Shown one piece after another: positions 6,111-11,702 of a stretch of DNA of 47,737 nt. The stretch covers positions 1 through 47,737 of the forward strand of contig CAMCCX010000011.1 in the NCBI GenBank assembly GCA_945873305.1, given 5' to 3'. The first letter of the stretch is position 1. Each line of letters opens with the position of its first letter. The notes beneath the pieces were generated by a model that was not told the origin of the DNA, did no database searches, and saw only the letters and a list, made by a program, of their open reading frames with translations. The DNA is from Akkermansia muciniphila. GTDB lineage: Bacteria; Verrucomicrobiota; Verrucomicrobiia; Verrucomicrobiales; Akkermansiaceae. A program made the position numbers and the translations under genes.

Positions 6111-7412
6111 TCATTCCCCGATCACCGTTTCCGCCTGCCACGGACCGTTCAGCGGGTGCCAAAGCGCCGCCCAATACCATGCGGAGACATCGGTCCACGT
6201 CGAGCCGTCGCGGCTGCTGGTGATCCGTTCATGCACGGTCCGGCGCAGGCCGTCGCGCGTCGCGGAAAACCTCGCCCAGCGGCTGCCGTCGGCCAGCCTC
6301 ACCGTGATCGCCTCGGTCGTTTCAAACCCCGCCGCGCGCAGGCAATCGCCGGCCGGATGCAAGCGCCGCGTCGCCTGGTTCACCCGCCGGAGAATCACCT
6401 GGTCGGTCCTCCAGCGGTAGCTGGAAAGCGTGCCGGGAAAACTCTTCGCAAACGCGGTTTCCGCCTCCGTCGGCGGCAGGGAATGCAGCGGCAGGACCAG
6501 GCCATTGAACGTGAAAACCTCCGGCCCACGCCCGAGCTCCGGCGGCACCGGTGTCCGCGGCGTGCCGAACGCCAGCAGCGGCGCGAGGACCGCGGCACAC
6601 GCTAACAACACCCATTCCGTCCGCCCCGCCTGATTGCTGGAACCGGCGGAAAGCGCGGGCCGCGCGCGGCTGGAAATCGCGGCCCACAAGGGCAGCAGAA
6701 TCATCGCGAAGCTCACCAGCCCGATCCCGCCGTGGCCGAGAATCGTCTCCGGCAAATACCCGGTTTCAGTTAACACCAACAGGCTCGCGCGCATAACATT
6801 GGCCGGGATCACCAGCGCGATGGCCAGCAAGCCGCCGATCACCGTCGCCCGCCACGTCAAGCGGTGGATCGCGGCCAGCGCCATAGCCGCGGCCAGCGCG
6901 TGCCATAACATCCGCACCCCGCCGCAAGCCGGATCGACCCCGATCACCTGCCCGTCGAGCTCGATCTGGGTGCCGCTGCGCGACACCACGACGCTCCCTA
7001 ACTCCAACAACCGCAACGTGCCCTCCGCCGCCGCCACCCGCAGCGGATAGCCCGCGAAAAACTGCATCGACGCCGCCACCGGCAGCGACAACGCGAGCAA
7101 GCCCAGCAGTCCCGCCCGGCGGTGGATGCCGTAACAAGTCGCCACGCCCGCCACCGCCAGCCCGGCGCGCAGCATCGGCGGCAGCCCGTGGATTCCGAGC
7201 ACCGACAGCAAAACCAAGGCCGCGCCGAAAACGCGGGCGCCCGCACTGGCGTGCAGGGATTTCCGGTCCCGCCAGGCGAGGACGCAGGCCAGCGCCAGTG
7301 TTAGCAGGCCGAGCGGTTCATCACAGCCGTCGTCGAGACGCTTTCCAAACCACCAGACGACCGGTGCCAGCGCCACGCATTGCAGGACGGCGGGATGAAT
7401 TTTCGATGACAT
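6111..7412 (-). CDS. Exosortase with EpsI-like C-terminal domain
   Basis: 433 residues. The first 250 are a polytopic membrane domain of the exosortase/archaeosortase family with all three catalytic residues: Cys163 in DPACGGVRML, Arg208 in IPANVMRASLL and His227 in LGHGGIGLVSF. Exosortases cut PEP-CTERM tails in the inner membrane and pass the protein to the surface. A further membrane segment (about 265-285) leads into a soluble domain (290-433) with HPAGDCLRAAGF, resembling EpsI proteins that are often separate or fused to exosortases. The gene lies 60 bp downstream of a VIT/vWA gene whose product ends in a PEP-CTERM tail, its likely dedicated substrate. Confidence 0.9.
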   Translation of the reverse strand: MSSKIHPAVLQCVALAPVVWWFGKRLDDGCDEPLGLLTLALACVLAWRDRKSLHASAGARVFGAALVLLSVLGIHGLPPMLRAGLAVAGVATCYGIHRRAGLLGLLALSLPVAASMQFFAGYPLRVAAAEGTLRLLELGSVVVSRSGTQIELDGQVIGVDPACGGVRMLWHALAAAMALAAIHRLTWRATVIGGLLAIALVIPANVMRASLLVLTETGYLPETILGHGGIGLVSFAMILLPLWAAISSRARPALSAGSSNQAGRTEWVLLACAAVLAPLLAFGTPRTPVPPELGRGPEVFTFNGLVLPLHSLPPTEAETAFAKSFPGTLSSYRWRTDQVILRRVNQATRRLHPAGDCLRAAGFETTEAITVRLADGSRWARFSATRDGLRRTVHERITSSRDGSTWTDVSAWYWAALWHPLNGPWQAETVIGE

Positions 7413-7427
7413 GGCGGCAAATAGGGG

Positions 7428-7469
7428 GCATGGACGTCTCGTCCATGCGAGGGGACGAGACGTCCCCTC
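7428..7469. repeat. Paired hairpin element D between VIT gene and exosortase
   Basis: Two directly abutting 9-bp hairpins: GCATGGACG-TCT-CGTCCATGC (7428-7448) and GAGGGGACG-AGA-CGTCCCCTC (7449-7469). The TCT-then-AGA loops and shared GTCTC/GAGAC core match elements A and B although the stems differ. It fills the 60-bp gap between the VIT gene stop and the exosortase start, so it may reduce exosortase transcription or protect the upstream mRNA end. Confidence 0.65.
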
Positions 7470-7472
7470 TCC

Positions 7473-9576: not shown

Positions 9577-9581
9577 CACCT

Positions 9582-11006
9582 TCAGGCAAGCGGCAGGGTG
9601 AGCCGCGCCAAGGTCCCGCCGCCCGCGGCGGGTTCCAGGGTGATAGAGCCGCCGTGGAGCTCGGCGGTTTCCCTCACAAGAGTCAGGCCGAGACCGGTGC
9701 CCTTGCGCTTCGAGGAATGGTGGCGCAGCGAGTAGAAGCGCTCGAAGATTTTCTCCCGCGCGTAGTCCGGCACGCCGGGGCCGTGGTCGCGGATGGTGAG
9801 GACGACGTTTCCGCCGGCGGATTCCACGTCGATATCCACCGCGCCGCCGCGCGGCGAGAAGTCGATGGCGTTTTCCAACAGATTCGTCACGGCGGCGCGG
9901 AGGATGAAGGAATCCCCGCGCAGCAGGACGGGCGAGGTTGCCGCCCGGTCGTCGAGCCGGACGCCGGCGACTTCCGCCAGCGGCCGCGCCTGGTCGATGG
10001 CGCGGGCGACGATGGCGTGGAAATCCAGCTCCTCGGGTTTCTCAAGACTGCTGCGGCCCTCGATGGCGGCGAGTTCCAACAGACGGTTGATCAGGCGCTC
10101 GCTGCGGGCGGTCTCGGCGCGGATGTTTTCGAGAAACCGCATTCTAACTTCGACGGGCATTTCCTCGTCGAGCAGCTCGGCCGCGCCGCGGATGGCGGCG
10201 AGCGGGCTTTTCATTTCGTGGGTGAGCGTCTGGATGTAGCGCTCGGCGTAGCGGCGGCCTTCGAGGACGTCGCGCATCGAGTCGAGCGCGTGGGCCAGCG
10301 TGTTGACCTCGCGGCCGATGCCGATTTTCGGCTTTTGCGGGCGCTCGCCACGCTCGATGGCGCGGGCGTATTCGGTGATTTTCCCGATGGGATGGAACAG
10401 CCAGAGAAACACCGCGCCGATGAGAAACAGGATGCCGCCGCCGATCATCCCGCAGGCGGTGTAGATGATCCGCTGGCGTTCGCGGACCAGCGGCAGCACG
10501 TCCGCCTGGGCTTTGTAAACGGTGAGCACGCCGTCGGGCTTGGCGGGATTCCCGACCGGCGCGGCGACGTAGAGCACCGAGGTGGTCGAATCGTTTTCGC
10601 GGTCGCGGCTGCTGCGCGCGCCGTATTTCCCGGCGAGGGTCCGCGCCACGTCGCGCTTGCCCGCGAAGTCCTCGCCCTCGCGGCGGCCTCCGTCCGAATC
10701 GAAGACCACCACGCCCTTCGCATCCGTCAGATAGACGTGAATCCCGACCGTCCGCTTGGTGTGTTCGAAGATGCGCGCTTCGATTTCCCGCCGGTGCGCT
10801 CCCTCGACAGCGGTGCGGAGTTCGTCCGCCTTGAAGACATCCGCGGCGACGACTTCCGCCAACAGGTTCGCGAGGTCCACCATGACCTCCTCGGTCGCCT
10901 GGAAAGTCTGCGGCTCGACCTCGGCCAGGAAATTGCGCGCAAGCTGGTAGAAACCGAGCGTGATGATGAACGCGATGAAAAACAGGGTGACACGGGTGAA
11001 ACGCAT
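9582..11006 (-). CDS. creC: CreC-like sensor histidine kinase
   Basis: 474 residues, the same length as E. coli CreC and alignable along its length. It has an N-terminal membrane helix (FFIAFIITLGFYQLA), a periplasmic sensor region with VYLTDAKGVVVFDSDGG, YGARSS and SVLYVAAPVG as in CreC, and a second membrane helix near 185-205. HAMP, the H-box LTHEMKSPLAAIRGAAELL, then N, G1 and G2 boxes (NLLENAIDFSPRGG, DHGPGVPDY, GTGLGLTLV) follow. It should phosphorylate the response regulator encoded 12 bp upstream. In E. coli CreC responds to envelope and carbon state; the signal here is unknown. No creD is visible; the next gene downstream is the VIT/vWA gene. Confidence 0.92.
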   Translation of the reverse strand: MRFTRVTLFFIAFIITLGFYQLARNFLAEVEPQTFQATEEVMVDLANLLAEVVAADVFKADELRTAVEGAHRREIEARIFEHTKRTVGIHVYLTDAKGVVVFDSDGGRREGEDFAGKRDVARTLAGKYGARSSRDRENDSTTSVLYVAAPVGNPAKPDGVLTVYKAQADVLPLVRERQRIIYTACGMIGGGILFLIGAVFLWLFHPIGKITEYARAIERGERPQKPKIGIGREVNTLAHALDSMRDVLEGRRYAERYIQTLTHEMKSPLAAIRGAAELLDEEMPVEVRMRFLENIRAETARSERLINRLLELAAIEGRSSLEKPEELDFHAIVARAIDQARPLAEVAGVRLDDRAATSPVLLRGDSFILRAAVTNLLENAIDFSPRGGAVDIDVESAGGNVVLTIRDHGPGVPDYAREKIFERFYSLRHHSSKRKGTGLGLTLVRETAELHGGSITLEPAAGGGTLARLTLPLA

Positions 11007-11018
11007 GGCGGTGAAGGA

Positions 11019-11702
11019 TCAAAGGGAAAGCAGATAGCCCAGCCCGCGGCGCGTCTGGATCAAGTCCTCGGCACCCACGCGGACGGCGCGCAGCTTGGCG
11101 CGGATGGATTTGACGTGGGCGTCGATGGTCCGGTCGGTGACGGCGCCGGGGTCTTGCCAGGCGTTTTCAAGCAGCTGGTCGCGGGTGAAGACGCGGCCGG
11201 GCTTTCCTAGCAGGACGAGCAGCAGCTTGTATTCGTGCGCGGTGAGGTCGAGCGGTTCGCCATGGCAGTGGACGCGCATCGCGGCCGGGTCGTGGTGGAG
11301 GACTTGCGGGTTTTCTGAAGCTTGGGGCAAAGGAGCCCGAGTCTGCGAGCGGCGGAGAACCGCCCTCACCCGCGCCACGATTTCCCGCGGCGAAAACGGC
11401 TTGGTCACGTAGTCGTCGCCGCCGAGCTCCAGCCCGAGGATGCGGTCCACCTCGCCGTCACGCGCGGTTAGAAAGAGGATCGGAATCGGCGAGGTTTCCC
11501 GCAGGCGGCGGCAGACGTCGAGCCCGGTCATGTCCGGCAGGCCGATGTCGAGAATGGCGAAATCAAAAGCCTCGCGCCCCGCCGCCGCCAGCGCGTCCGT
11601 GCCGGTGAGGGCGTGGACGACGTCGAAACATTCCGTTTCGAGCGCATAAACGAGGGTGTCGGCGATGGCCGGTTCATCTTCAACCAATAGGACGCGGGGC
11701 AT
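11019..11702 (-). CDS. creB: CreB-like response regulator (OmpR/PhoB type)
   Basis: 227 residues from the ATG at 11702 (MPRVLLVEDEPAIADTLVYA), which aligns with CreB; a start at 11735 would run into the predicted operator. The receiver domain has the acidic pair in VEDE, phospho-acceptor Asp in LDIGLPDMTG, FLTARDGEVDR and KPFSPRE; these are also close to CreB. A winged-helix DNA-binding domain ends the protein (LTAHEYKLLLVLL, DRTIDAHVKSIRAKLR, RRGLGYLL). It lies 12 bp upstream of creC. The site at 11708-11750 suggests that it regulates itself, with a possible leaderless mRNA, since the predicted -10 is 5 bp from the start codon. Confidence 0.93.
   Translation of the reverse strand: MPRVLLVEDEPAIADTLVYALETECFDVVHALTGTDALAAAGREAFDFAILDIGLPDMTGLDVCRRLRETSPIPILFLTARDGEVDRILGLELGGDDYVTKPFSPREIVARVRAVLRRSQTRAPLPQASENPQVLHHDPAAMRVHCHGEPLDLTAHEYKLLLVLLGKPGRVFTRDQLLENAWQDPGAVTDRTIDAHVKSIRAKLRAVRVGAEDLIQTRRGLGYLLSL

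Follow-up and report, generated by a model that had tools for sequence, protein, structure and literature searches.

In the proteobacterial dedicated sortase (PDS) systems (TIGR03784, TIGR03785, TIGR03787 and TIGR03788), one sortase is grouped with one VIT/vWA target bearing an LPXTG signal and with one two-component system. In the XrtN system (TIGR04476/TIGR04477), a dedicated exosortase stands beside one VIT-domain protein. The CreBC/BlrAB regulon of E. coli, Aeromonas and Pseudomonas is marked by the operator TTCACN6TTCAC, i.e., the cre/blr tag, and its described target is creD (PMC4689548). Here, we analyze a four-gene locus in a 47,737-nucleotide stretch of Akkermansia muciniphila (contig CAMCCX010000011.1; hereafter, the window), in which creB and creC are followed by the genes of a VIT/vWA surface protein and an exosortase. 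With a probability of roughly 77%, we read this locus as a member of a CreB regulon, in which one exosortase would serve one substrate and the expression of both would be governed by CreBC.

Like a PDS operon, the locus combines one enzyme, one VIT/vWA target and one two-component system, a likeness in architecture that the original prediction had drawn and that the sequence comparison bears out. The body of the VIT protein matches the PDS target model TIGR03788 with 378 bits across almost the whole model (cut-off 552 bits) and is, by this match, homologous to the PDS target. The differences from the PDS systems are that an exosortase and a PEP-CTERM-like tail take the place of the sortase and LPXTG, and that CreBC, which is not confined to the system, replaces the PDS regulators. 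The XrtN system shares the dedicated exosortase beside one VIT-domain protein; however, its VIT architecture is different and without a vWA match. In addition, the window exosortase reaches 43 bits against the XrtN model (cut-off 200 bits), and its VIT protein gave no match to the XrtN target model TIGR04477. The locus is thus predicted to work like a PDS or an XrtN system, while belonging to neither. With the CreBC/BlrAB regulon it shares CreB and CreC orthologues and the operator, which here precedes the VIT–exosortase pair rather than creD and often contains three to five repeats.

Genes and Proteins of the Locus

The four genes are intact and lie on the minus strand, in the transcription order creB (11019..11702), creC (9582..11006), the VIT/vWA gene (7473..9491, with a probable start codon at 9473) and the exosortase gene (6111..7412). 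Family scores and intact open reading frames confirm the gene order and identities first proposed. The OmpR-type response regulator CreB (NF008296, 293 bits vs. a cut-off of 273) and the sensor histidine kinase CreC (NF008312, 496 bits vs. 356) both exceed their NCBIfam equivalog cut-offs. The creB reading frame is open as far as a TTG at 11735; the ATG at 11702 is favoured as the start because a predicted operator repeat at 11724-11750 falls inside the extension.

The presumed sole substrate, the VIT/vWA protein, carries a predicted signal peptide and matches the VIT and VWA families (PF08487, PF13768). It ends in a PEP-CTERM-like sorting tail (7473..7562, minus strand; VPEPGSIGLIAFLVVLLALQRQRDAEA) consisting of a VPEP motif, a hydrophobic helix and a basic end, and VIT orthologues have such a tail as well. 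Among the PEP-CTERM families (PF07589, TIGR02595), the window tail scores 19.5 bits against PF07589 when searched on the genome and 15.5 bits on the protein (cut-off 20.7), while the orthologous tails of five genomes (G122, G153, G154, G163 and G166) exceed the PEP-CTERM cut-off.

The exosortase matches PF09721 with 80 bits (cut-off 25.7) and is by this measure a multi-transmembrane exosortase (PF09721, TIGR04178). Its catalytic residues Cys163, Arg208 and His227, previously noted as intact, are indeed so and are invariant in an alignment of 36 exosortase sequences. The best NCBIfam match is exosortase Q (XrtQ, NF012182), with 150 bits, below the cut-off of 270. Pseudomonadota members of this clade, whose VIT partner is the same, reach 291-361 bits, apart from one at 191 bits (L251). 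Thus, the cut-off assigns most of the tested Pseudomonadota members to exosortase Q, and the window copy is, from these scores, a diverged relative. Among the open-licence papers searched, we found none on the substrate or regulation of XrtQ, nor on CreBC or CreC together with an exosortase.

The C-terminal part of the exosortase (6111..6545, minus strand), which the original prediction did not mention, contains His352 and Cys357, both invariant in the same alignment, and forms its own open reading frame in several relatives. In an AlphaFold2 model of the enzyme (pLDDT 90.9), the membrane helices are followed by an alpha/beta domain that starts at about residue 295. A fold search of this model against the PDB returned nothing at an E value of 0.001 or better, and no EpsI model matched the domain. 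Judged by its motif and position, the domain is probably EpsI-like; the first PEP-CTERM paper already recorded exosortase–EpsI fusions (PMC1569441).

Pairing of Enzyme and Presumed Substrate

Among 142 genomes surveyed in the order (Verrucomicrobiales), of which 22 have a VIT orthologue and 120 do not, the exosortase accompanies the VIT protein in all but one, with the contig ending inside the exosortase in G093 and the two genes unlinked in G091 and G117. In the exception, G049 (L123, C1:3057544-3059460), the VIT gene, operators and tail are intact, and the exosortase is a short C-terminal stub 3′ of VIT. A wider scan of 84,980 species genomes with profile A1 returned 80 exosortase loci, spread over Verrucomicrobiota, Pseudomonadota, Obscuribacterales, Acidobacteriota, Armatimonadota and others, and in most of them the VIT gene lies directly upstream of the exosortase gene. 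VIT-linked exosortases cluster on the tree (9 changes vs. a shuffled-label mean of 27.7), and VIT and exosortase distances are correlated (Mantel r 0.70, 0/2000 permutations), with the reservation that the trees are quick searches with many weak branches and that many of the genomes are incomplete metagenome assemblies. On this evidence, the pairing proposed at first holds, and the VIT–exosortase pair recurs from Verrucomicrobiota to Pseudomonadota.

A neighbouring exosortase clade (loci L193-L247 without a vWA-type VIT protein, from Obscuribacterales, Acidobacteriota and Armatimonadota) mostly has one large upstream protein with a PEP-CTERM-like tail. These upstream proteins contain a distant VIT domain in 10/10 scanned, and a comparison of some of them with the XrtN target TIGR04477 showed a resemblance. 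The clade apparently consists of XrtN-like systems outside Bacteroidota. Because this clade, too, has an upstream, tailed partner with a VIT domain, the whole enzyme group appears to be built from enzyme–substrate pairs.

The number of PEP-CTERM tails per genome supports the claim of one enzyme for one substrate. In the 11 genomes where this exosortase is the only one found, the PEP-CTERM counts are 2, 1, 2, 1, 1, 0, 19, 0, 1, 1 and 9 (median 1; one tail or none in 7/11), vs. a median of 21.5 where further exosortases are present (38 genomes; Mann–Whitney p = 1.6e-5). In five of the sole-exosortase genomes (G122, G153, G154, G163 and G166), the VIT protein itself accounts for the single tail. 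Where the enzyme is alone, the predicted ratio of enzyme to substrate is near one-to-one. Elsewhere in the window genome, another exosortase is encoded close to an exopolysaccharide sugar transferase, and there are about nine PEP-CTERM proteins besides the VIT protein, neither of which had been noted before; most of these additional tails share the form LLGxLGxLxLLRRRR, which the VIT tail does not have.

Predicted CreB Operators and the Distribution of creBC

The original prediction did not include the TTCAC direct repeats that precede both creB and the VIT gene on the minus strand. The repeat 5′ of creB (11724..11750) reads TTCAC-N6-TTCAT-N6-TTCAC (14/15 matches to three TTCAC half-sites; published consensus TTCACN6TTCAC, PMC4689548), and the repeat 5′ of VIT (9506..9532) reads TTCAC-N6-TCCAT-N6-TTCAC (13/15). 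Scored as three TTCAC half-sites at 11-base spacing with a threshold of at least 13/15 matches, such an operator is present in 36/48 dereplicated VIT promoters, vs. 4/4800 dinucleotide shuffles and 2/198 other genes of the same loci, both of which are creB. In many VIT promoters, the repeat is present three to five times in perfect or nearly perfect form. Among cultured members, Haloferula rosea, which has two exosortases, and Roseibacillus persicicus combine strong repeats with CreC. At least one of the negatives (L233) is a start-codon artefact, since perfect repeats were seen when the same locus was scored as L051. In the neighbouring exosortase clade, the operator was found in 0/21 partner promoters. 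For 24 of the 36 operator-bearing VIT promoters, there is no creBC in the stretch fetched. Regulation of VIT by CreB is strongly indicated by these predicted operators, because they are conserved 5′ of VIT, also where creBC is unlinked. A sigma-70 promoter scan around the VIT gene found none.

CreC occurs in 22/22 VIT genomes of the order vs. 50/120 of the others (Fisher p = 7e-8, with shared ancestry ignored). Together with the operators, this supports the predicted two-component control of the pair. The part of that claim that made the control the system's own did not stand: strict dedication of creBC is rejected, since CreC is widespread without VIT, the linked CreC of the window groups within unlinked CreCs on the tree, and creBC has other neighbours in congeners without the pair. 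Adjacency in relatives, also expected at first, is confined within the order to the few loci given below, and it is found in about 15 VIT loci of other Verrucomicrobiota, Opitutaceae and Pseudomonadota. Linkage alone is therefore equivocal, because it is rare in the order yet recurs elsewhere.

A creD partner was also considered and rejected: the window genome has no CreD match, and the CreD-like hits in the order are for the most part weak and partial. Two Pseudomonadota loci, L228 (2421-3473) and L251 (4964-5827), encode an extra small exported protein between creC and VIT, which by eye is VIT-like rather than CreD; the cre tag precedes this extra gene. Elsewhere in the window genome (C37 and C57; L139 and L141), perfect cre tags lie about 50 bases before the genes of an RpoD-like sigma factor and a MoxR-type AAA ATPase (both named by eye), which are possible further CreB targets. 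Perfect triple repeats elsewhere in the order precede a varied set of genes, compiled as a rough list, and some of these hits look incidental.

Proposed Mechanism and Alternative Explanations

In the mechanism that we propose, CreC would sense an envelope condition and phosphorylate CreB, which would bind the TTCAC direct repeats 5′ of creB and VIT and activate both. The signal peptide would direct export of the VIT/vWA protein, and the PEP-CTERM tail would hold it in the inner membrane. The cognate exosortase would use its Cys-Arg-His site to cut the tail, after which the protein would be handed to the cell surface, with the EpsI-like domain probably helping on the periplasmic side. The sequences themselves show the four genes, the catalytic residues, the tail, the pairing in several phyla, the near one-to-one ratio in genomes where the enzyme is alone, and the operators; from these we infer CreB binding and activation, tail cleavage, surface location and the signal sensed. 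The nature of the signal is carried over by analogy from P. aeruginosa, where CreBC is triggered by loss of PBP4 activity (PMC2654508), and may be similar here.

Several observations weigh against a CreB-controlled, one-substrate system. Within the order, creBC adjoins the pair in only 3/19 VIT–exosortase or exosortase loci (the window, G078 and G062), and a CreC orthologue is found in 50/120 genomes without a VIT protein; the co-occurrence tests ignore shared ancestry and include a large set of small genomes, all from a single genus, that lack both genes. The operator 5′ of the window VIT gene is imperfect in its middle repeat, and operators are missing from a few VIT promoters (L202, L216) or sit before the extra upstream gene (L228, L251). 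The regulatory findings would fit a general envelope regulator that adjoins the pair without controlling it, and the 16/19 loci in which creBC is unlinked, the 50 genomes with CreC and no VIT protein and the nesting of the window CreC all favour such incidental gene order. However, most loci carry the operator 5′ of VIT regardless of linkage, at a rate far exceeding that in shuffles and in other genes; in addition, CreC is present in every VIT genome of the order, and linkage recurs in two phyla. We regard incidental order as unlikely.

On the enzyme side, the PEP-CTERM models are short and some tails escape them, including that of the window VIT protein, and two genomes (G160 and G168, with 19 and 9 PEP-CTERM hits) have only this exosortase detected. 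Together with the roughly nine other tails of the window genome, these two genomes could suggest a general enzyme that also serves the cell's other PEP-CTERM proteins, with the VIT gene as a mere neighbour. Such a role seems improbable given the median of one tail in sole-exosortase genomes and the second, exopolysaccharide-linked exosortase of the window genome. The nearest tree relatives of G160 and G168 (G156 and G165) also carry a second exosortase, one that is perhaps missing from the incomplete assemblies of G160 and G168. As for a PDS operon in the strict sense, the near full-length match of the VIT body to TIGR03788 and weaker matches of the response regulator and histidine kinase to TIGR03787 and TIGR03785 point in that direction, but these three models remain far under their cut-offs, the enzyme is an exosortase rather than a sortase (TIGR03784), the tail is PEP-CTERM-like, and the regulators exceed the cut-offs for CreB and CreC. 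Membership in the PDS family is rejected on these grounds, and the strict PDS reading is highly improbable.

Other Features of the Intergenic Regions

The gap between creC and VIT contains a REP-like palindrome (9559..9573, minus strand; CGGCTGTCTCAGCCG), which has 66 exact copies in the genome, whereas the reversed pattern has 0. The copies frequently form inverted pairs, spaced by about 30 bases. In the window, it occurs at 4114-4162, 9559-9573 and 14819-14857. The gap between VIT and the exosortase gene contains a pair of small palindromes in opposite orientations (GGACGTCTCGTCC and its inverse; 7432..7465, minus strand), which resemble the REP-like palindrome.

Implications

An exosortase typically has many substrates, and its chemistry is therefore difficult to trace. 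A naturally occurring pair of one enzyme and one substrate with a predicted inducing system would be a clean exosortase model, and the pair is found in cultured bacteria with no other exosortase detected, e.g., Parachitinimonas caeni and Panacagrimonas perspica. A broader suggestion, which we offer tentatively and with the odds somewhat against it, is that CreBC has an ancient and conserved role, common to Verrucomicrobiota and Pseudomonadota, in controlling a dedicated VIT/vWA–exosortase display unit, through which envelope (cell-wall) stress would alter surface display. On the reading of the locus as a CreB-controlled exosortase system, CreBC, which has few explained targets, would gain a conserved target outside the lineages studied so far, and the known but little-studied XrtQ family would gain a likely substrate and a likely regulator.

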